A stretch of DNA of 64,000 nt, taken from contig NZ_CP045720.1 in NCBI RefSeq assembly GCF_009646115.1, forward strand, positions 2,790,001 through 2,854,000. Reading direction: 5' to 3'. A program made the translations under genes and the position numbers. Numbering within the stretch: position 1 is the first letter of the stretch; the number at the start of each line of letters is the position of its first letter. Origin of the DNA: Pantoea eucalypti. GTDB taxonomy: Bacteria; Pseudomonadota; Gammaproteobacteria; Enterobacterales; Enterobacteriaceae. This document shows, piece after piece, positions 49,695-63,567 of this stretch. Below the pieces are notes generated by a model. The model saw nothing but the letters and a program-made list of their open reading frames with translations, did not search any database and was not told the DNA's origin.

Positions 49695-50327
49695 ATGACC
49701 CGGAAACGCTATTCCTATGAACCCCGTGCTGGTCACGGTCTGCCCCACGATCCGCTCAACGCCATTATCGGACCACGACCAATCGGCTGGATTAGCTCTG
49801 TCAGCGCCAGCGGCCAGCGCAATCTGGCCCCTTACAGCTTCTTTAACTGCTTCAACTATCATCCGCCAATTATCGGTTTCGCCAGCAGCGGCTGGAAAGA
49901 CAGCGTGCAGAACATTGCGGACACCAAAGAGTTTGTCTGGAACCTGGCTACCCGCCCGCTGGCCGAAGCGATGAACGAAAGTTCCGCTTCACTGCCTGCC
50001 GATCAGGATGAGTTTGCCTTTGCAGGGTTAACACCACTGGCGGCATCACAGGTAGGTGCCAGTCTGGTGGCGGAAAGCCCGGTCAACTTTGAGTGTCGTC
50101 TGACCCAGCTGATTCAGTTGCAGGATGCCAGTGGCAATCTGGTCGACAGCTGGCTGGTGCTGGGTGAAGCGGTCGCGATCCACATCGATGAATCGCTGCT
50201 GGAAGCGGGCATTTATCAGACCGCAAAAGCCGAACCGATACTTCGTGCAGGTGGTCCCAGCGCCTATTACGGCATCAGTGAAGCGCAGCGCTTTGATTTA
50301 GTCCGTCCGGACGCACGCCGCAAATAA
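49695..50327 (+). CDS. Flavin reductase-like FMN-binding protein
   Basis: A 210-aa protein of the flavin reductase-like (FMN-binding split barrel) family. Blocks IIGPRPIGWISSVSASGQRNLAPYSFFN (quoted as GPRPIGWISSVSASGQRNLA), NYHPPIIGFASSG, KDSVQNIADTKEFVWNLAT and VESPVNFECRLTQ-type segment AESPVNFECRLTQL are typical. The partner oxidoreductase or physiological substrate is unknown. It is convergent with the lyase-like gene of the hut transporter operon, with only 3 bp between the stop codons. Ribosome-binding CTGGAG precedes the ATG. Confidence 0.85.
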   Translation: MTRKRYSYEPRAGHGLPHDPLNAIIGPRPIGWISSVSASGQRNLAPYSFFNCFNYHPPIIGFASSGWKDSVQNIADTKEFVWNLATRPLAEAMNESSASLPADQDEFAFAGLTPLAASQVGASLVAESPVNFECRLTQLIQLQDASGNLVDSWLVLGEAVAIHIDESLLEAGIYQTAKAEPILRAGGPSAYYGISEAQRFDLVRPDARRK

Positions 50328-50330
50328 TCC

Positions 50331-51848
50331 TCACTCCACAAGCGCATCGGTCCGGTGCGCCCTTATCTGCGCCACCGCACGGTCGATGTCGGGTGCCAGC
50401 CAGCGATCCTGCTGCCAGCGCTCAACCACCTGCCGCAGATGCTGCCAGGCGCGCCGCGTGCCGGCTGCCAGCTGTGATTCACCGTGAAACTCCAGCGCCT
50501 GCGCCGCCAGCAGATACTCAATCGCAATGATGTGATCGACGTTGCTGACCAGCTTCAGCAGCTTCAGCGCCGACCCGGTGCCAAGACTGATGTGATCCTC
50601 CTGTAATCCTGAGGTGACATAGTTGTCGAGTACCGCAGGCTGGGCCAGCTGACGGTTTTCCGCGCAGAGTGAGGCCGCGACGTACTGCGCAATCATCATG
50701 CCAGAATTGACGCCAGGCTCGGCCACCAGAAACGGCGGCAGGCCACTGACCAGCGGGTTTACCAGCCGATCCAGCCGTCGTTCGGCAATACTCCCGAGCT
50801 CCGCCAGCGCAATCGCCAGCAGGTCACAGGCCATCGCCACCGATTCACCGTGCGGATGTGACTGTGACACCACGCGCCACTCCTGCGGCGTGCCCAGAAT
50901 CAGCGGATTGTCGGTACAGGCGTTGAGTTCAGTCTCCACCTGACGTGCGGCGTGATCAAACTGATCGCGGCAGGCGCCGTGCACCTGCGGCATCGACCGC
51001 AGACTCATCGCATCCTGAGTGCGGATGCCGACACTCGCGTTCAGCAGCGGGCTGTCTCTCAGCAACTGGCGCAGACGTTCACCACTGCGCTGTATTCCCG
51101 GGCTGGCCTTGAGTGCCAGCACCTCTGGATCAAACGCCACCAGCTGACCGCGCAGCGCTTCAAAACTCATTGCGCCTGTCACATCCGCCCAGTCCAGCAG
51201 ACGCCCGGCATCGTCCAGCGCCAGGCAGGCTAAGCCGGTCATGCAAGGCGTGCCATTGACCAGGCTCAGTCCCTCTTTGGCACCTGGCCGGTAAGGCGCT
51301 AAGCCCGCCTGGGCCAGCGCCTGCTGCGCGGGCATGATTTCGCCGTGCCACTCCACCTCGCCGATGCCGATCAGGGCCAGACCGATATGCGCCATGTGGG
51401 TCAGATAGCCTACCGATCCCTGGGACGGCACCTGAGGGGTAATCTGCAGATTCAGTAGCGCCAGCAGCTGCTGCACCAGCGCCACTGACACACCCGATTT
51501 GCCATGACTGTAGTTGGCAATCGCGGCACACAGAATGGCGCGGACCTCCGCTTTTTTAAGCACCGGCCCGACACCACAGGCATGGCTCAGTAAGGTATTG
51601 CGCGACAGCTGGCTCAGTTCATCTTCGGAAAGAGTAATGTTGCACAACGCCCCTAATCCGGTATTAATGCCGTAGGCTACCTGCCCCGCCGCGACGATGT
51701 TGCCGACGATTTCACGGCTCCGGGCAATTCGCTGCCAGGCGCTGTCGCTCAGCGTCAGAGTCGCGCCATGCCGGGCGACCTTCACCAGCTCCTGCCATTT
51801 AAGCGGACCATCGCCCCAGACCCGCGTCTGACTCATGACGTCGCTCAT
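50331..51848 (-). CDS. Histidine/aromatic ammonia-lyase-like protein lacking the MIO triad
   Basis: A 505-aa member of the HAL/PAL family. In HutH of the same window the MIO-forming Ala-Ser-Gly lies in [14 protein letters not shown]; here the aligned segment (residues 144-154) reads [11 protein letters not shown], an exact three-residue loss. The active-site Tyr of HutH (QDPYSIR) is Met281 here (QDAMSLR). Retained are Tyr59 in YGINTGLG, Asn198 in LVNGT, Arg284 and Glu417 in LQEDH. It cannot form MIO by the known route, so ammonia-lyase activity is doubtful. It overlaps the transporter ATPase gene by 4 bp, suggesting a ligand-binding, regulatory or altered catalytic role. No frame disruption: not a decayed pseudogene. 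Confidence 0.85.
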
Positions 51849-52639
51849 ACCACCGGCTCCACCTGATGATGGCTGGAAATAAACTGCTTAAAGCGCGCCG
51901 ATCCCGCCTCGCCGAACATCGCCTCTGGCGTGCCCTGACAATCAATCGTGCCCTGATGCATAAACACGACCCGGTTTGAGACGTTGCGGGCAAAGCCCAT
52001 CTCGTGCGTGACCACCAGCATGGTGCGCCCCTCTTCGGCCAGGCTGCGCATCACCTTCAGCACCTCACCCACCAGTTCCGGATCCAGTGCCGATGTCGGT
52101 TCATCAAACAGCATCACCTCCGGGTCCATCGCCAGCGCGCGGGCGATCGCCACCCGCTGCTGCTGGCCGCCCGAAAGCTGAGCGGGATAGAAGTCTTTGC
52201 GATTCAGCAGGCCAACCCGATCCAGCAGCTGTTCTGCCTGAGCGATGCAGGCTTTTTTATCGCGCTTCAGCACGTAGTGCGGCCCTTCAATAACGTTTTG
52301 CAGTACGGTGAGATGCGACCAGAGATTAAAGCTCTGAAACACCATCCCCAGCCGGGAACGCAGCCGTTCAATCTGACGCGGGTTAGCCGCCAGCTGGTGC
52401 CCGCGTGCATGACGCTTCATCTCAATGGTTTCACCGCCCACGCTGACGACGCCAGAATCAGGCGTCTCCAGCAGGTTGATACAGCGCAGCAGCGTACTTT
52501 TACCGGAGCCGCTGGCACCGAGAATAGAGATGACATCGCCCTGATGCGCCTGCAGCGAGATGCCCTTCAGCACCTCCATCGCGCCAAAGGATTTATGGAT
52601 ATCGCTGGCCGACAGCGTGACGGGTGGCAGTTCAGACAT
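51845..52639 (-). CDS. Polar amino acid ABC transporter ATP-binding protein (HisP-like)
   Basis: ATPase of an importer in the HisP/GlnQ family, 264 aa. Walker A GASGSGKS, the HisP-type insertion with [29 protein letters not shown] (quoted as [16 protein letters not shown]), signature [15 protein letters not shown], Walker [14 protein letters not shown], switch VTHEMGFAR. HisP-like length and insertion favour a basic or histidine-like amino acid. It overlaps the upstream permease by 8 bp and the lyase-like gene by 4 bp. The hut context suggests histidine or urocanate as substrate, by inference. Confidence 0.9.
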
Positions 52640-53372
52640 TTTTTTCTCCTCCGGGGATCGGCTTAGCGGCCGGTAACGGCTTTTTTTCCGGTTGATGAAC
52701 CGGTGTCAGACGCCGCTCCAGCAGGGCATACAGTTGAACAATGATGAAGTTGAGGATTAGATAGATCGCCGCTGCACAGAGAAACACCTCCATGGTGCGG
52801 TAAGTACGCTGGATAATCTGCTGCGCGACCCCGGTGACATCCCACACCGTCACCAGACTCGCCAGCGCGGTTGATTTCACCAGCAGAATCGCTTCGGTGG
52901 AGTACGCAGGCAGCGCATAGCGCAGCATCACCGGTGCGATAATGCGCCGCAGCAGCAGGCCGCGCGACATGCCGCATGCCATCCCCGCTTCCACCTGACC
53001 GGGCGGGACCGCCAGCAGCGCGCCGCGCAGGATCTCCGCCGTGTAGGCGGCGGTACAGAGGGACAGGGCCAGCACCGCGCAGGTAAAAGGCTCACGCAGA
53101 AACGGCCAGAAGACGCTGTGGCGGATCACCCCAAACTGTCCCAGCCCGTAGTAGATCAGGAACAACTGAATCATCAGCGGCGAGCCGCGAAACACCAGAA
53201 TGTAGCCGCGGGCGAATGCACTCAGCAGCCGCCAGCGGCTCATGCGCAGCGCCAGAATACCGACCGCCAGCACGCCCCCGCAGAGAAAGGCGCTGATAAA
53301 CAGGCCGAGCGTGACCGGCAGCGCCGCGCTGAGTTTCAGGAAGGTGTCAGTAAGGAACGCAAAATCAATCAT
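52632..53372 (-). CDS. Polar amino acid ABC transporter permease (HisM-like)
   Basis: Inner-membrane permease, 246 aa, about five segments. The HisMQ signature is [21 protein letters not shown] and the EAA loop is [28 protein letters not shown]; a charged proline-rich tail ([17 protein letters not shown]) follows the last segment. It lies 8 bp after the first permease gene and runs into the ATPase gene. Its partner is the HisQ-like permease. Confidence 0.9.
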
Positions 53373-53380
53373 AACTCTCC

Positions 53381-54100
53381 TTAATGCTGTGCAGCGGTGC
53401 GGCTTTGCCAGGCGCGACCCAGACGGGATTCGGCGCGCAGAAAGGCGCGATTCGACAGCAGCGTCAGCAGCAGATAACAGGCACCGCCCACCAGGTAAAA
53501 GGAGAAGTAGTCCCGGGTAGAACCGGCTGCTATCTGGCTGGCCCGCATGAGCTCGACAATGCCGGTCACCGATACCAGCGCGGAATCTTTCAGGCTCATC
53601 TGCCAGACGTTAGACAGGCCGGGCAGCGCATAGCGCGCCACCTGCGGCAACAGGATACGTTGCCGGATGCGCCAGCGCGGCATGCCAATAGCGACGGCGG
53701 CTTCGATCTCCCCTTTCGCCAGAGCCAGCCGCGCGGCACGATAGACTTCCGCCTGGTAAGAGCCGGAGATAAGCCCGATCGCCAATGCCCCGATCAGAAA
53801 CGGCGGCGCTTCGATAAAACCGTCTGCGCCAAACAGTTGTCCGATCTGCGTGATCAGTCCCGATCCACCGAAGTAGAACAGGTAGATCACCAGCAATTCA
53901 GGGATACCCCGAAAGATCACCGAGTAGCTTTCACCCAGCCAGCGTACCGCCCGGTGCGGGGATAACTTTGCGGCGGCCACGCCCGATCCCACCACCGCGC
54001 CGACCAGCAGCGCGCAAAACGACAGCAGCAACGTGGTCAGCGTGGCACTCAGAATCAACCGTCCCCAGCCGTCCGGGCCAAAACTCAGCAGGCTTATCAT
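53381..54100 (-). CDS. Polar amino acid ABC transporter permease (HisQ-like)
   Basis: Inner-membrane permease, 239 aa. The segment YSVIFRGIPELLVIYLFYFGGSG is the HisQ-type signature (RGIPELL), and the EAA loop is EAAVAIGMPRWRIRQRILLPQVARYALPGLSNVW (quoted as EAAVAIGMPRWRIRQRI). It starts 12 bp after the binding-protein gene and is translated with it. Confidence 0.9.
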   Translation of the reverse strand: MISLLSFGPDGWGRLILSATLTTLLLSFCALLVGAVVGSGVAAAKLSPHRAVRWLGESYSVIFRGIPELLVIYLFYFGGSGLITQIGQLFGADGFIEAPPFLIGALAIGLISGSYQAEVYRAARLALAKGEIEAAVAIGMPRWRIRQRILLPQVARYALPGLSNVWQMSLKDSALVSVTGIVELMRASQIAAGSTRDYFSFYLVGGACYLLLTLLSNRAFLRAESRLGRAWQSRTAAQH

Positions 54101-54112
54101 CCGTTACCTCTC

Positions 54113-54961
54113 TCAGGGTGTGACGTCAGTTTTGAACCACTTCTCGCTCAGCTTTTTCACTGTGCCATCGGCCAGCGCGGCTTTGATCGCCTGATCCAGT
54201 CGGGCTTTCAGATCGTTGTCTGCCATGCGCACGCCCAACGCCTCGCCCTCACCCCAGATCGGGCCGCCCAGCTGCGGACCGCTGAAGCTGAGGTTACGGT
54301 TATCCGGTCGTGCCAGCATCGACTGCGCAAAGGTCACATCGTCAAACACCGCATCAATGCGTCCGGCCTGCAAATCGAGGATCGCATCGGCTGAACTGGT
54401 GTATTCGCGCACATCCGCCACATCTTTGAAGTATTTGTCGATAAACGGCGTGTAGACCGTGCCGGAGGCGATACCGATCGTTTTGCCCTTCAGCGCGGCT
54501 TTCAGGGGTGCAATGGCAGGCGCTATGGTTTTTTCATCGTCGGTAAGTTTGATGATCTTACTGTCGGCGGGCAGCAGTGACCCTTTTACCGTGATAAAGG
54601 TGGCGGGCGTGGAGGCGTAAGGGACGGTGAAATTCACCACTTTTTTGCGGTCGGGCGTAATCACAATCGCATCCATGATCACGTCATATTTTCCGGCATT
54701 CAGTCCGGCGATCATGCCATCCCAGTTCTGTACCACCAGCTTGCACTGAATCGCCATGCGCTGGCAGAGATCCGCCATCAGCTCTGGTTCGAAACCGCCC
54801 AGCTTGCCGCCCGGCAGGGTGAGGTTCCAGGGTTCATAACTGCCTTCAGTGGCAATGGTGATGGACTTCCACTCTTTAGCCTGGGCGCTGACGCCACAGA
54901 GCAGCAGACTGGAAACCAGCGTAGTGAGACATAAACGACGAAGGGTCAGAGGGTGCATCAT
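54113..54961 (-). CDS. Polar amino acid ABC transporter substrate-binding protein
   Basis: Periplasmic receptor of the SBP_bac_3 family, 282 aa. Two adjacent ATGs (54961, 54958) follow AGGAGA; signal peptide MMHPLTLRRLCLTTLVSSLLLCGVSAQA. The mature protein has ITIATEGSYEPWNLTLPGGKLGGFEPELMADLC and VVQNWDGMIAGLNAGKYDVIMDAIVITPDRKKVVNFTVPYA (quoted as ATEGSYEPWNL and GKYDVIMDAIVITPDRKK), HisJ/LAO-like. First gene of a five-gene unit ending in the MIO-less lyase. Two HutC-type dyads upstream link it to hut regulation. Ligand not proven; histidine or urocanate are candidates. Confidence 0.9.
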   Translation of the reverse strand: MMHPLTLRRLCLTTLVSSLLLCGVSAQAKEWKSITIATEGSYEPWNLTLPGGKLGGFEPELMADLCQRMAIQCKLVVQNWDGMIAGLNAGKYDVIMDAIVITPDRKKVVNFTVPYASTPATFITVKGSLLPADSKIIKLTDDEKTIAPAIAPLKAALKGKTIGIASGTVYTPFIDKYFKDVADVREYTSSADAILDLQAGRIDAVFDDVTFAQSMLARPDNRNLSFSGPQLGGPIWGEGEALGVRMADNDLKARLDQAIKAALADGTVKKLSEKWFKTDVTP

Positions 54962-55033: not shown

Positions 55034-55142
55034 CATGTATATACAAGTTAACGCAGTGCAGTTCATTGCCGGCTTTATCATTTTGTGAGCCAGACGGGAT
55101 TTATTCAGATTGAGCACGCACTGCAGCACTTGTACATACAAC
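55034..55142. promoter_or_regulatory. Two candidate HutC operators upstream of the transporter operon
   Basis: CATGTATATACAAG (55034-55047) lies 73 bp before the binding-protein ATG and CTTGTACATACAAC (55129-55142) further up. Both match the dyad found at all other hut promoters here. The 307-bp region between the transporter operon and hutG has no ORF. Confidence 0.75.
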
Positions 55143-57354: not shown

Positions 57355-58711
57355 ATGGTAACTTTTTTTGCCCCGCGTGCACTGCTGGCAGAGGGCTGGC
57401 AGCAGCAGGTTCGTATCACAGTTAATCAGGCGGGTTTTATCGATGCCATTGCTCCGGATAGCCATGCGGAGAATGCTGTCCAGCTCAACGGCGAGGTAAT
57501 TCCGGCGATCGCCAACCTGCACTCGCACGCCTTTCAGCGTGCCATGGCGGGGCTGGCAGAAGTCGCGGGCGATCCTCAGGACAGCTTCTGGACCTGGCGG
57601 GATTTGATGTACCGCATGGTGCAGCGCCTGACACCCCGGCAGGTGGGCGATATTGCCGCCCTGCTCTACATCGAAATGCTGAAGGGCGGCTACACCCAGG
57701 TGGCGGAGTTTCACTATCTGCATCACGACCCCAGCGGCGCACCCTATGGTGATGATGCGATGCTGCAACAGCTGATCGAGGCGGCGGAGATCGCCGGTAT
57801 CGGTCGAGACCCTGCTGCCGGTGCTCTACAGCTACAGCGGCTTTGGCAGTCAGCCTGCAACGGCGGGTCAGAAACGTTTTATCCAGCAGACCGACCAGTA
57901 TCTGCAACAGCAGGCGCGGCTGGAGGAGTGGCAGCAGCAGCGGCCACTGCTGAATCGTGGCCTCTGTTTCCATTCACTGCGGGCAGTAAGTGAAAGTCAG
58001 ATGCACGACGTGCTGGCGGCCAGCGATCCTGGGCTGCCGGTCCATATCCATGTGGCTGAACAGCAGAAAGAGGTCAATGATTCGCTGGCGTGGAGCGGCG
58101 AACGGCCGGTTGCCTGGCTGCTCAACCGCTTTAAGGTAGATACGCGCTGGTGTCTGATCCACGCCACGCATCTGGATGAGAGCGAACTGTCACGCCTTGC
58201 CCGCAGCGGTGCGGTGGCGGGTCTCTGCCCGACCACCGAAGCCAACCTCGGTGACGGCATTTTTCCGGCGGTGGAGTATATCGCGCAGGGCGGACGCTGG
58301 GGCATTGGCTCCGACAGTCACGTCTCGCTGAGCCCCCAGGAAGAGCTGCGCTGGCTGGAGTATGCGCAGCGCCTGCGCGACCAGCGCCGCAACCGAATCA
58401 CCCTGCCTGACCAGCCCTCGGTAGGCGATCTGCTTTGGCAACAGGCTGCAGCAGGGGGTGCGCAGGCGTGCGGCATTCAGCAGGGTACGCTGGCGGTGGG
58501 ACAACGTGCTGACTGGCTGGTGCTGCGTGATGAGGCATGGCTCGGCAGCGTGGAATCACACGCCGTAATGAACCGCTGGCTGTTTGCCGGACAGCGCGAT
58601 CAGATTCGCGACGTCTATGTTGCAGGTAAAGCCGTGGTGAAAGATGGCGTGCATCCGCACCAGGCAGCGTGTGCCGCACGCTTTGCTCAGGCAATGGCGG
58701 CGCTGCGATGA
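57355..58711 (+). pseudogene. hutF: Formimidoylglutamate deiminase HutF with an apparent +1 frameshift
   Basis: Amidohydrolase turning N-formimino-glutamate into N-formylglutamate plus ammonia. Codons from 57355 (MVTFFAPRALLAEGWQQQVRI, NLHSHAFQRAMAGLAE) read in one frame to about 57804; from about 57809 (TLLPVLYSYSGFGSQPAT, VAEQQKEVNDSLAW, GIGSDSHVSLSPQEELRWLEY) the protein continues in the next frame to the stop at 58711. Between them CGAG (57805-57808) holds one base too many. Corrected, the product would be 451 aa, a normal HutF length, with all metal-site motifs. This is either a sequencing error or a true inactivating mutation; hutG would lose its substrate supply in the latter case. Confidence 0.88.
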
Positions 58712-59250
58712 TCGCCCGGTTCGCATATGCCGATCTGGCAGTCAGCCGCTGGCGCAACGGTGGCGGTGAGACCCGTGAGATTATCAGTTTCCCGCCCGGC
58801 GCAGATCGCTTTGGCTGGCGCGCCAGTATTGCGACCCTGGCGCAGAATGGCCCCTTCTCTCCCTTTCCGGAGATTGATCGGGTTATCACCCTGCTGCACG
58901 GCGATCCGGTGTTGTTAACCGCGCCCGGCGTGCAGCATCTGTTGACGCCGCAAAAGCCGTGGGCGTTTGCCGGCGAACTCGCCTTAACGGCACAACTGCA
59001 GGGCAGCGTCAGCGAAGATTTTAATATCATGACGCGACGTGGTGAATGGCAGGCAACGGTGGAGGTGGTTACCACAGAGGTCAGCGCGCTGCATGGCGTC
59101 GCCTGGGTGCTGGCTGGCGCATGGCAGACGGCTGACGGGGAAAAGCTGAGCGCGCAACAGGGGACGTGGTGGGTCGATGATGAGACACAACTCAGCCCGT
59201 GTGACACGGATGCCCGGCTGCTGTTTACCCGACTTAACCGTGTCCTCTGA
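58708..59250 (+). CDS. hutD: HutD family cupin
   Basis: A 180-aa bicupin-like protein of the HutD/Ves family, found with hut genes; in Pseudomonas it is thought to cap histidine breakdown, with an unknown ligand (possibly formylglutamate). Blocks SRWRNGGGETREIISFP, RFGWRASIATLAQNGPFSPFPEIDRVITLLHG (quoted as GWRASIATLAQNGPFS and RVITLLHGDPV) and DFNIMTRRGEW are typical. The ATG overlaps the hutF stop (ATGA), so translation depends on ribosomes finishing hutF. It is convergent with hutC and overlaps its 3' end by 17 bp. Confidence 0.92.
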   Translation: MIARFAYADLAVSRWRNGGGETREIISFPPGADRFGWRASIATLAQNGPFSPFPEIDRVITLLHGDPVLLTAPGVQHLLTPQKPWAFAGELALTAQLQGSVSEDFNIMTRRGEWQATVEVVTTEVSALHGVAWVLAGAWQTADGEKLSAQQGTWWVDDETQLSPCDTDARLLFTRLNRVL

Positions 59251-59989
59251 AGCGGCCCAGCAGTTTGTAACGTGAGCCAGGATAGAGCAATCGCGCATAG
59301 GTCACGATTTTCGTGTCGCTCCAGGTCTGACGGCGAATCAGCAGGCAGGGTTCGTGCTCATCCAGCGACAAATGCTTACGCTGACGCGCATCGGGCAGCA
59401 CCGCTTCAACGATGTGCTCACCCGCCGTCAGCGGCGCGACCCGCATGAGATAGGTGTACGGCGTCATCTTCTCATAATCCTGCGTCAGGTAGTCGGGCGC
59501 GACCAGGGGATTGACCAGACGATCCTCCAGCTGCACCGGCAGATCGTTTTCGTAGTGCACAATCAGCGAATGGAAGAGCGTCTGCCCGGTAGTGAGACCC
59601 AGTACGGCCGCCTGCTCGGGATCGGCTTTGTTCTGACCGAGGGTAAGGATTTTTGCGCTGTGCTGATGACCGCGCTGGGCAATCTCATCGGCGATGTTAT
59701 GCACCTCCAGCATGGCGGTGTAGCCTTTCATCTCCGCCACAAAGGTCCCGACACCCTGCATCCGCACCAGAAATCCCTCACTGGTGAGCTCACGCAGCGC
59801 CCGGTTAATGGTCATGCGACTGACGCCCAGTTCATTGACCAGTTCACTTTCTGATGGCACACGCTGATTCGCTTTCCACAACCCTTCACGAATCTGGCTG
59901 ACAATGGCCTGTTTCACCCGCTGATAGATCGGTGCAGGTTCATCGCTCATTGCCGCCGCCAGTTGTGCCAGTGCCGTATGCTCAACCAT
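59234..59989 (-). CDS. hutC: Histidine utilisation repressor HutC (GntR family)
   Basis: Transcriptional repressor of hut, induced by urocanate; 251 aa. N-terminal GntR winged helix: PIYQRVKQAIVSQIREGLW, VPSESELVNELGVSRMTINRALRELTSEGFLVRMQGVGTFVAE (quoted as SELVNELGVSRMTINRALREL and RMQGVGTFV). C-terminal UTRA ligand-binding domain with [13 protein letters not shown] and RKHLSLDEHEPCLLIRRQTW. The ATG at 59989 follows AAGGAA; the frame is open upstream without homology. Divergent from hutH, with a dyad 50 bp upstream for autorepression. Confidence 0.95.
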   Translation of the reverse strand: MVEHTALAQLAAAMSDEPAPIYQRVKQAIVSQIREGLWKANQRVPSESELVNELGVSRMTINRALRELTSEGFLVRMQGVGTFVAEMKGYTAMLEVHNIADEIAQRGHQHSAKILTLGQNKADPEQAAVLGLTTGQTLFHSLIVHYENDLPVQLEDRLVNPLVAPDYLTQDYEKMTPYTYLMRVAPLTAGEHIVEAVLPDARQRKHLSLDEHEPCLLIRRQTWSDTKIVTYARLLYPGSRYKLLGRFRGHG

Positions 59990-60315: not shown

Positions 60316-61866
60316 ATGTCAGGTTCGTTTCAGGCATTGCGCCTGGTGCCAGGCGAGGTGGACCTCGCCACATTACGCGCTATCTATCAGGGTAATGTCA
60401 CATTAAGTCTCGATGAGCGTGCGCGTCAGGCGATTGCAGCGGCGCAGCAAACCGTAGATGCCATTGTCGCCTCCGGTAACGTGGTGTATGGCATTAATAC
60501 CGGCTTCGGCAAACTGGCGCAGACCCAAATTCCGGCCAGCCGGCTGGCGGATCTGCAGCGTAATCTGGTGTTGTCACACAGCGTCGGACTGGGCGATCTG
60601 CTGCCCGACAATGTCACCCGGCTGGTGGTCGCAACCAAAATCATCAGTCTGGCGCGCGGTCACTCTGGCGTGCGAATCGAACTCGTTGAGGCGCTGCTTG
60701 CCCTGTTTAACGCGGGTGTGATGCCCTGCATCCCGGAAAAAGGCTCTGTCGGGGCTTCTGGCGATTTGGCGCCGCTGGCGCACATGTCGCTGATGCTGCT
60801 GGGTGAAGGTCAGGTACGGCTCGCTGGTAAGCTGATCCCGGCCACAGAAGGACTGGCAAGCGTCGGCCTGTCGCCGTTTGTGCTCGGTCCAAAAGAAGGA
60901 CTGGCGCTGCTCAATGGCACCCAGGTTTCGACTGCGCTGGCGCTGCGTGGCCTGTTTGAAGGTGAAAATCTGTTTGCTGCCGGTCTGATGGCGGGTGCGC
61001 TTTCGCTGGAGGCGATCAAAGGCTCGCTGAAACCGTTCGACGCCCGTATTCATAAAGCGCGTGGTCAGCAGGGCCAGATTGCGGTCGCCGCCGCCGTCAG
61101 CGCTCTGATAGAGGGCAGTGAAATTCTGCAGTCGCATACCCATTGCGGCCGCGTGCAGGACCCCTACTCCATCCGCTGCGTGCCGCAGGTGATGGGTGCC
61201 TGCCTGGACAATTTCAGCCACGCGGCGCGGATTCTGGAAATCGAAGCAAACGCAGCCTCGGACAACCCGCTGGTGTTCAGCGACAGCGGCGATGTGATCT
61301 CCGGCGGCAACTTCCACGCCGAACCCGTGGCCTTTGCCGCAGATATCCTGGCGCTGGCCATTGCTGAAGTCGGCGCCATCTCCGAGCGGCGCCTGGCGCT
61401 GCTGCTGGACAGCGGCTTATCTGGCCTGCCGCCTTTCCTGGTGCGTGACGGTGGCGTGAACTCTGGCTTTATGATCGCCCAGGTCACCGCCGCCGCGCTC
61501 GCCTCTGAGAACAAATCGCTGGCCCATCCGGGCAGCGTAGACAGTCTGCCGACCTCCGCTAACCAGGAGGATCACGTCTCAATGGCGACCTATGCCGCCC
61601 GCCGTCTCGGCAGCATGTGCTTTAACAGCGCCGCGGTGGTCGGTATTGAAGCGATGGCCGCCGCGCAGGGTATTGAATTTAACCGGCCGCTGAAAAGCTC
61701 TGTGCTGATTGAGCAGGCCATCGACACCATTCGCGAGCAGGTCGCTTTCCTTGAGGAAGATCGCCTGCTGGCACCCGATATCGAGGCCATGCGTCAGTGG
61801 GCAAGTCGCGCTGACTGGCCTCAGGCATTGACCGCGCTGCTGCCGAGCATGCGCCCAACTTCTTGA
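60316..61866 (+). CDS. hutH: Histidine ammonia-lyase HutH
   Basis: First hut enzyme, deaminating L-histidine to urocanate; 516 aa. The MIO electrophile forms from Ala147-Ser148-Gly149 in [15 protein letters not shown]. Other catalytic residues are in [14 protein letters not shown] (Tyr58), [43 protein letters not shown] and [15 protein letters not shown] seven bases before the ATG overlaps a HutC-type dyad. Transcribed with hutU, 15 bp downstream. Confidence 0.97.
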
Positions 61867-61881
61867 ATTAAGGAATCTCTT

Positions 61882-63567
61882 ATGAGCGAAACTCTTTCTC
61901 AGGCTGTGGCACGTGAAATTCGTGCGCCACATGGCACCACACTGCACTGCGCTAACTGGCTGATTGAAGCGGCTTACCGCATGATTCAGAACAACCTCGA
62001 TCCCGATGTGGCCGAGCGGCCGGAAGATCTGGTGGTTTACGGCGGCATCGGTAAAGCGGCGCGAAACTGGGCATGCTTCGAGCAGATCCTGCGTTCGCTG
62101 CGGGCGCTGCAACCGGATGAGACGCTGCTGATCCAGAGCGGCAAACCGGTCGGCATCTTCCGCACCCACGCGGATGCGCCGCGCGTCCTGCTGGCGAACT
62201 CTAATCTGGTGCCACACTGGGCGACCTGGGATCACTTCCACGAGCTGGATAAAGCGGGCCTGATGATGTACGGCCAGATGACCGCCGGTTCCTGGATCTA
62301 TATCGGTGCACAGGGCATCGTGCAGGGCACCTATGAAACCTTTGTGGAAGCGGGACGTCAGCACTATAACAACGACCTCAGCGGACGCTGGATTCTCACC
62401 GCCGGGCTGGGCGGCATGGGCGGCGCGCAACCGCTGGCGGGTGTGCTGGCCGGTGCCTGCGTACTGGCGATTGAGTGCCAGGAGTCACGCATCGATTTCC
62501 GTCTGCGTACCCGCTACGTAGACTACAAAGCCACCACGCTGGACGAAGCGCTGGCCATCATCAGCGAAGCCACTGCTGCGAAAAAAGCGATTTCAGTCGG
62601 GCTGCTGGGCAATGCCGCTGAAATCCTGCCAGAGCTGGTGAAACGCGCCCGGGCGGGCGGGCCGAAGCCGGACATCGTGACCGACCAGACGTCGGCACAT
62701 GACCCAATAAATGGTTATCTGCCGATTGGCTGGGATCTGGCGCGCTGGCAACAGGCGCGCGTTTCACAGCCGAAAGCGGTTGAGAAAGCCGCGCGTGCCT
62801 CTATGGCGGTTCACGTCCAGGCGATGCTCGACTTCTGTCATATGGGTATTCCGACCGTGGATTACGGCAACAACATCCGTCAGGTAGCGCTGGATGAGGG
62901 TGTCAGCAACGCCTTCGACTTCCCTGGCTTTGTCCCGGCCTATATCCGTCCGCTGTTCTGTGAAGGCAAAGGCCCGTTCCGCTGGGTGGCGTTGTCAGGC
63001 GACCCGGAGGATATCTACAAGACCGATGCCAAACTCAAGGAGCTGTTCCCGCACCACAAAACGCTGCATCGCTGGCTTGATATGGCGCAGGAGCGCATCG
63101 CTTTTCAGGGCCTGCCGGCACGTATCTGCTGGCTGGGACTGGGCGAGCGACACCTTGCCGGTCTGGCGTTCAATGAAATGGTGCGCAACGGCGAGCTGAA
63201 AGCGCCGGTGGTCATTGGCCGCGACCATCTCGACTGCGGTTCAGTTGCCTCACCAAACCGCGAGACCGAAGCGATGAAAGATGGCTCGGATGCGGTCTCT
63301 GACTGGCCGCTGCTTAACGCGCTGCTGAATACCGCGGGCGGCGCGACCTGGGTCAGCCTGCATCATGGCGGCGGTGTCGGCATGGGCTTCTCGCAGCACT
63401 CTGGCGTAGTGATTGTTGCCGATGGCAGCAAAGAGGCCGATGCGCGTCTGGGTCGTGTGTTATGGAATGACCCGGCCACCGGTGTCATGCGTCACGCCGA
63501 TGCAGGTTATGAGCTGGCGCAGAGCTGTGCTGCAGAGCACGGCCTGAACCTGCCAATGCAAAAATAG
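61882..63567 (+). CDS. hutU: Urocanate hydratase HutU
   Basis: Converts urocanate to imidazolonepropionate with tightly bound NAD+ as electrophile; 561 aa. Blocks [72 protein letters not shown] (quoted as [19 protein letters not shown]), [22 protein letters not shown] and [17 protein letters not shown] are the urocanase core. AAGGAA precedes the ATG. Terminator follows at 63584-63615. Confidence 0.97.

Follow-up and report, generated by a model that had tools for sequence, protein, structure and literature searches.

Histidine ammonia-lyases, or histidases (HAL), such as HutH of Pseudomonas putida (PDB 1b8f) and the archaeal enzyme of Thermoplasma acidophilum (PDB 7tqr), carry the electrophilic cofactor 4-methylideneimidazole-5-one (MIO), which is formed from an Ala-Ser-Gly (ASG) triad. 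In the P. putida histidase (PpHAL), M382 and E414 presumably hold the imidazole and Y53 presumably acts as the base. Ergothionase is described, in the part of the report available to us, as MIO-free and as cleaving ergothioneine to trimethylamine and thiourocanate (PMC13405746). Here we analyzed a stretch of 64,000 nucleotides from Pantoea eucalypti (contig NZ_CP045720.1, positions 2,790,001 to 2,854,000; hereafter, the window), in which positions 50331-51848 encode a lyase that we designate HALx. Unlike the histidases, HALx has no MIO; with the ergothionase of Treponema denticola (PDB 6s7j) it shares the HAL fold, the absence of MIO, and the replacement of Tyr280, which is Leu in the T. denticola enzyme. 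Comparison of its sequence and surroundings with those of its relatives leads us to propose that HALx is probably an MIO-free trimethylamine lyase, which would convert hercynine to urocanate for the urocanate hydratase HutU. Hercynine is N-alpha-trimethylhistidine, or histidine betaine, a fungal compound. The relevant features of the window are as follows:

50331..51848, minus strand: HALx, MIO-less HAL-fold lyase, predicted hercynine trimethylamine lyase (ATG at 51848; from the open reading frame, PF00221 match, and conservation)
51387..51419, minus strand: collapsed MIO site of HALx, codons of residues 144-154 (from alignment)
60316..61866, plus strand: HutH histidine ammonia-lyase with the ASG triad present, used as comparison protein
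61882..63567, plus strand: hutU, urocanate hydratase, sole HutU match in the source genome and predicted next step

The initial annotation of this DNA described the HALx gene as intact, and indeed its open reading frame (ORF) is uninterrupted on the minus strand, includes a stop codon within 50331-51848, and encodes a product of 505 amino acids. The protein has the histidase fold, matches PF00221 (aromatic amino acid lyase) over its full length (552 bits), and is, together with HutH, one of two PF00221 proteins in the source genome; its best named homologues are from Candidatus Pantoea varia (97%) and P. agglomerans (95%). Identity to HutH, both of P. putida and of the window, is about 40%, and in contrast to these enzymes HALx lacks the triad, Tyr280, and Phe329. 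Alignment with the window HutH reproduced the three-residue loss reported earlier at the MIO site: Ala-Ser-Gly is gone. The placement of the gap is ambiguous ("ASG lost, D to Y" is equivalent to "A to Y, SGD lost"), but neither version leaves Ala-Ser-Gly. The residue assignments made earlier were also borne out, with Met281 at the position of the Tyr of QDPYSIR (HutH Tyr284), and Tyr59, Asn198, Arg284, and Glu417 retained. With the triad missing, we rejected the possibility that HALx is a plain MIO-dependent HutH.

The loss of the triad is a property of the whole branch. When a single genome was scanned for each species, 105 relatives were obtained, the best 80 of which were retained; together with the window's own protein, all 81 close copies lack the triad and read GSVGYL[TS]HMAH at the MIO site. 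GSVGY is likewise found in the best 120 of 7371 database matches to HALx, all triad-less, and a further 32/32 loci, down to 50% identity, are triad-less as well (24 by pattern, 8 read). Variant forms of the site occur among these further loci, one of them in Rhizobium (GSAGYLTHNAH) and another in Sinorhizobium. The loci of close copies hold 27 additional HAL-like ORFs; ASGD is present in 26 of them, and the remaining one (L038) is MIO-less by a different change. The dN/dS values of HALx against five relatives are 0.047, 0.095, 0.083, 0.144, and 0.126; HALx is under purifying selection. The comparison with family members suggested by the initial annotation thus reveals a conserved deletion, and the alternative it had allowed for, a deletion unique to this strain amid other decay, is ruled out by the conservation of the triad loss together with the low dN/dS (0.047-0.144): HALx is not a relic.

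To compare active sites, we aligned 25 HALx sequences chosen across the family, 8 HutH, 8 archaeal HAL, 10 ergothionase-type sequences (a selection from 120 listed matches), and the L038 protein; positions are given in PpHAL numbers. Y53, H83, N195, Q277, R283, M382, and E414 are retained in 25/25 HALx. Position Y280 is occupied by Leu in 23 and by Met in two, never by Tyr, which makes Met281 of the Pantoea protein uncommon among its own kind, and F329 is replaced by Pro (15/25) or Ala (10/25). Ergothionase-type proteins lack the triad too and have Leu at Y280 in 10/10, Ser (nine) or Leu (one) at N195, and Gly (seven), Cys, Thr, or Ala (one each) at M382. Because M382 is kept in all aligned HALx, whereas the ergothionase pocket has been widened for the sulphur at C2, the ring pocket of HALx appears to be of the histidine type and not of the thio-histidine type.

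Ammonia must be activated in order to leave, but a quaternary amine need not be. An MIO-free site combined with a histidine pocket therefore points to histidine in trimethylated form. The substrate, reaction, products, and regulation that we infer for HALx are these. The imidazole and carboxylate of hercynine would be placed as in histidase by the equivalents of H83, Q277, R283, M382, and E414, and Tyr59 (PpHAL Tyr53) would take the beta proton. No electrophile would be needed, because quaternary trimethylammonium leaves by itself; with its unaided departure the MIO loop could go, and the triad loss, the change of Tyr280 to Leu or Met, and that of Phe329 to Pro or Ala would make space for the three methyl groups. 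The products would be trimethylamine and urocanate, the latter feeding HutU and relieving HutC. HALx would thus work like the T. denticola ergothionase, which carries out trimethylamine beta-elimination from a histidine betaine.

The retained imidazole pocket would also suit a slow, MIO-free histidine ammonia-lyase acting on histidine or a ring-modified histidine. This is also the function implied by current database names of HALx kin, usually histidine ammonia-lyase or HAL/PAL/TAL family lyase (one listed HALx cluster, from Klebsiella variicola, represents 1342 member sequences), and by profile scores: HALx exceeds the cut-off of the broader subfamily model NF006871 (543.2 vs 524 bits) and narrowly misses that of the NCBIfam hutH equivalog TIGR01225 (539 vs 539.15 bits). 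Yet ammonia leaves poorly where MIO is missing, and another HAL (39-45% identity to HALx; MIO site read in few) is already present in 20/21 HALx genomes. We regard slow histidase activity as highly improbable.

A different proposal is that HALx is itself an ergothionase, converting ergothioneine to thiourocanate and trimethylamine. HALx and the T. denticola enzyme are 29% identical, and HALx and the ergothionases fall in separate clades, each with 99-100% support. Whereas ASG is replaced by EG or EA in the T. denticola enzyme, making its MIO site one residue shorter, that of HALx is three residues shorter; the T. denticola enzyme, whose substrate carries the C2 thione, has Ser for N195 and Gly for M382, and HALx keeps both residues. 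Across the alignment, N195 is present in 25/25 HALx against Ser in 9/10 ergothionase-type proteins, and M382 in 25/25 against small residues in 10/10. A single HutU match was obtained in the source genome, where the HutU search revealed no second urocanase beyond hutU, and in 19/21 other HALx genomes; these genomes therefore have no second urocanase of the HutU family. Moreover, proteobacteria, including a Burkholderiales plasmid, have MIO-less lyases of their own with a one-residue-shorter site (5/5 read). The tree and the residue differences thus weaken the assignment of HALx as a T. denticola-type ergothionase, which we consider very unlikely. In a tree with outgroup, HALx is placed among the HALs, but an approximately unbiased (AU) test allows HALx and ergothionase as one clade (p 0.268). 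MIO was lost twice in the best tree, with a single origin still allowed by the AU test; the cofactor was perhaps dropped twice in this family, through two different deletions.

The genes surrounding HALx in the window are listed below:

51845..52639, minus strand: ABC importer ATPase, HisP-like (HisP model 342 bits, below the cut-off of 466)
52632..53372, minus strand: ABC permease 2, ArtM/HisM-like (below equivalog cut-offs)
53381..54100, minus strand: ABC permease 1, HisQ-like (below equivalog cut-offs)
54113..54961, minus strand: periplasmic binding protein, family 3; nearest solved relatives are the octopine- and nopaline-binding proteins
55036..55045, no strand assigned: palindrome TGTATATACA, resembling the HutC operator, at a conserved position upstream of the binding-protein gene
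55131..55140, no strand assigned: second site resembling the HutC operator, TGTATGTACA, also upstream of the binding-protein gene
59234..59989, minus strand: hutC repressor gene (context; served as the hutC query)

The coupling of HALx to an ABC importer, also proposed earlier, is seen in a 4-base overlap (ATGA) between the ATPase gene and the HALx start. Six places in the 64 kb carry the motif TGTATNNACA, which we take to be the HutC operator. Each of them lies in a hut promoter region, and two are upstream of the HALx operon; counted by strand, there are 9 matches in the window against 0.92 expected. The 350 bp preceding the family-3 binding-protein gene contain such a site in 53/60 loci, compared with 45/1200 random windows; the seven loci without one are L067, L069, L073, L104, L110, L111, and L113. 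These upstream sites support the earlier suggestion that the HALx operon is under HutC control, which thus appears likely.

To see which genes recur beside HALx, we used directed neighbor counts, the clustering of all neighbors being too noisy in GC-rich loci. The counts covered 91 HALx loci (L003-L082 and L104-L114; L083-L103 were omitted as short, and L016 is cut by a contig end). At least one hut gene is present in 72/91. The importer beside HALx is of the family-3 type in 60/91 and of the OpuAC/quaternary ammonium transporter (QAT) type in 27/91, with neither in the examined stretch in 4/91. Sinorhizobium meliloti pSymB has the gene order hutC, hutF, OpuAC importer, HALx; that of Pseudomonas poae (L051) is hutC, hutD, hutU, NCS1 permease, OpuAC importer, HALx, hutH, hutI, hutG. 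HALx adjoins hutU in L150 and L153. In L143 and L146, from two gammaproteobacteria of one family outside the 91-locus set, HALx lies after hutU, between a betaine/carnitine/choline transporter (BCCT) gene (399.7 bits in L143, 390.9 bits in L146) and hutI.

OpuAC proteins are quaternary-ammonium binders. According to the portion of a report available to us, EgtUC, an OpuAC relative, forms an aromatic cage around the histidine betaine part of ergothioneine and binds hercynine weakly (PMC9732360). Among proteins with solved structures, the binding protein of the window is closest to the octopine and nopaline binders OccJ and NocT (about 212 bits across its full length), ahead of HisJ (112 bits). 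Opines are amino acids substituted at the alpha nitrogen. All 61/61 family-3 binding proteins, that of the window included, have Asp95, Asp205, and Trp234, where both opine binders have Ala, Ala, and Phe; this suggests a pocket suited to a ligand that is cationic and lacks the additional carboxylate. Hercynine would meet all of these demands, as it is a betaine, alpha-N-substituted, and cationic and matches the histidine-type lyase pocket. Because betaine-type transporters recur next to HALx, histidine or urocanate, the ligands named in the initial annotation, are less likely than hercynine.

The resemblance to opine binders raises the question of whether HALx might remove some other alpha-N-substituted group from a histidine derivative, such as histopine or a partly N-methylated histidine, to yield urocanate. 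A gene for a SolA-type N-methyl-amino-acid oxidase (420 bits, cut-off 257) follows HALx in 2/91 loci, a setting that would accord with hercynine as well; as the family name implies, SolA acts on mono-N-methyl amino acids. A HalD-like gene of the 2-oxoglutarate-Fe(II) oxygenase/halogenase family is near HALx in 3/91. On the other hand, the invariant Asp95 and Asp205 should repel the extra carboxylate of an opine, OpuAC/QAT and BCCT neighbors indicate a quaternary ammonium compound, and a secondary amine leaves less readily without MIO. We consider such a substrate unlikely; a histidine opine as importer ligand, in particular, was raised by the likeness to opine binders and lowered by the two Asp residues. 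In the source genome, no SolA homologue linked to HALx was found, the best match being unlinked and 33% identical.

Hercynine cleavage by HALx would require a consumer of urocanate, and HutU was found in 21/21 HALx genomes. In an evenly drawn phylum sample, 15/398 genomes have a HALx match at E up to 1e-150, and all 15 have HutU, which is present in 154/398 sample genomes. In one genome (G308), HALx takes the place of HutH in the hut operon. No HutH of the usual kind (39-45% range) was found there; an ergothionase-side protein and a divergent lyase were found instead. Unless the divergent lyase is a histidase, this genome favors a role of HALx in supplying urocanate over one as a subunit of HutH.

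By synteny, HALx appears to be hutH1 of Pseudomonas fluorescens: in SBW25, as in L051, the order is hutU, NCS1 permease, QAT transporter, lyase (HutH1 or HALx), hutH. In those parts of the literature on SBW25 that were accessible, HutH1 is called a histidase, with no mention of MIO loss or another substrate, and hutH1 is reported to be dispensable for growth on histidine. A search of the open literature, with most subscription journals outside its scope, found no hercynine lyase, no MIO-less HutH paralogue, and no account of MIO loss in hutH1.

The initial annotation had left open whether HALx is a pseudo-enzyme or catalyzes a reaction without MIO. As a pseudo-enzyme, it would bind histidine, urocanate, or HutH and regulate uptake or form mixed HutH tetramers. 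The loss of the triad and Tyr280 would suit this role, as would the dispensability of hutH1 (on the partial account just cited), the coupling to importers, and the presence of a further HAL in most HALx genomes. However, the active-site Tyr and the other binding residues are retained in 25/25, G308 carries HALx in a hut operon without the usual HutH, and the accompanying importers belong to unrelated classes, so that HALx has no constant transporter partner. The pseudo-enzyme is, in our judgment, quite unlikely. MIO-less catalysis fits better because of purifying selection, the conserved active-site Tyr and binding residues, the linkage to uptake of betaines or N-substituted amino acids, and the ergothionase precedent.

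Several observations weigh against hercynine as the substrate of HALx. No recognised hut gene is present within the examined stretch in 19/91 HALx loci, and the importers in 60/91 are of the amino-acid/opine type, not proven to be of the betaine type. The invariant Trp78 of the family-3 binding proteins is common to both opine binders and hence uninformative. The SolA-type oxidase gene is rare (2/91), and the HalD-like gene (3/91), a setting with desaturase-like and Mo-hydroxylase genes (2/91), and the context of an alphaproteobacterial subgroup (L147 and L148), where no hut genes are near HALx, are unexplained. In G308, the divergent lyase is MIO-bearing, 37% identical to the window HutH, and might act as histidase. 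In the AlphaFold2 monomer model of HALx, the predicted local distance difference test (pLDDT) score is below 50 at residues 59-68 and 410-413, both of them active-site loops. The comparison that set HALx apart from ergothionases covered those of the T. denticola type; ergothionases are also described from Burkholderia HME13 and Agrobacterium (PMC13405746). Finally, we take PA5093 of PAO1 to be the hutH1 orthologue, which clashes with a published hutG tag; one of the two is wrong. In the accessible part of the report concerned, PA5093 is assigned as hutG, and hutG deletion impairs growth on histidine (PMC12772324).

The odd contexts deserve description in their own right. In some Pseudomonas (L067, L069, L073), the HalD-like gene immediately precedes the operon of HALx and its importer. 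On rhizobial plasmids, HALx (L108, 12010-13506; L112, 10004-11500) is located by genes for a fatty-acid-desaturase-like protein, a PhnD-like binding protein, and a molybdopterin hydroxylase, with no hut gene in the examined stretch around it. HALx of L147 (genome G008) and L148 (G430) has the site GSVGYI[VT]HGAH; the neighbors are dioxygenase-like and FGGY-kinase-like (sugar-kinase-like) ORFs, judged by eye, and HutU is encoded elsewhere in the genome. All these may be side branches with other substrates. In an evenly drawn sample of the class of G008, 8/385 genomes have a HALx match at E up to 1e-120. HALx matches were also present in 813 plasmid records, 11 of which were examined, three of these unannotated. 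An MIO-bearing lyase paralogue, about 33% identical to HALx, occurs in G308 and G237 (L144, L145), and several other HALx genomes contain matches that score like it.

A second MIO-less kind of lyase was recognized in proteobacteria by motif reading:

L156, 9953-11458
L154, 9968-11587
L155, 9938-11578
L143, 5510-7045
L038, 15665-17212

Its members come from a Polaromonas plasmid, S. meliloti pSymA, Rhizobium johnstonii pRL12, L143, and L038. In all five proteins that were read, the site is one residue shorter, Y280 is replaced by Leu, and M382 by Thr, Leu, or Ala; their motifs are GS[VIL]G-xA-D and QDPLS[FY]R, and where annotated they are called ammonia-lyase. Neighbors, not all of them at each locus, include OpuAC/glycine-betaine binding proteins and ornithine-cyclodeaminase-family genes. 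A YeiH/sulfate-exporter-type gene is near two of the three annotated lyases (Polaromonas and pRL12), and the pRL12 gene adjoins hutC and a glycine-betaine binding protein gene. This kind forms a set separate from HALx, possibly for other, sulphur-bearing betaines.

Two further features of the window were considered. A flavin-reductase gene (49695-50327), convergent with HALx, was dropped as a part of the system: the cluster occurs in 33/94 loci, and in the neighborhoods compared the gene is always found together with rlmF and is therefore a mere chromosomal neighbor. The hutF gene (formimidoylglutamate deiminase) is split into overlapping frames (57355-57993 and 57821-58711, plus strand). In relatives, 42 ORFs match both halves in one frame and none matches a single half; the split reflects either a genuine frameshift or an error in the sequence.

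Whether the conclusion extends to the whole branch is, to us, evenly balanced. On that broader reading, a widespread and misannotated histidase branch, Pseudomonas hutH1 included, would be a second MIO-free trimethylamine lyase that evolved independently of the first. Hercynine would enter the hut pathway through betaine, BCCT, or modified opine-type importers, inducing the system via HutC through its own product, and the hut operon of G308 would be one built for histidine betaine. If HALx does cleave hercynine, the name histidine ammonia-lyase is wrong for it, and a function would be found for hutH1, which has lacked an explanation in a textbook operon. Hercynine would acquire an entry into the hut pathway, Enterobacterales would have a possible source of trimethylamine, and HALx would represent a clean case of a family shedding a protein-derived cofactor once the leaving group needs none.
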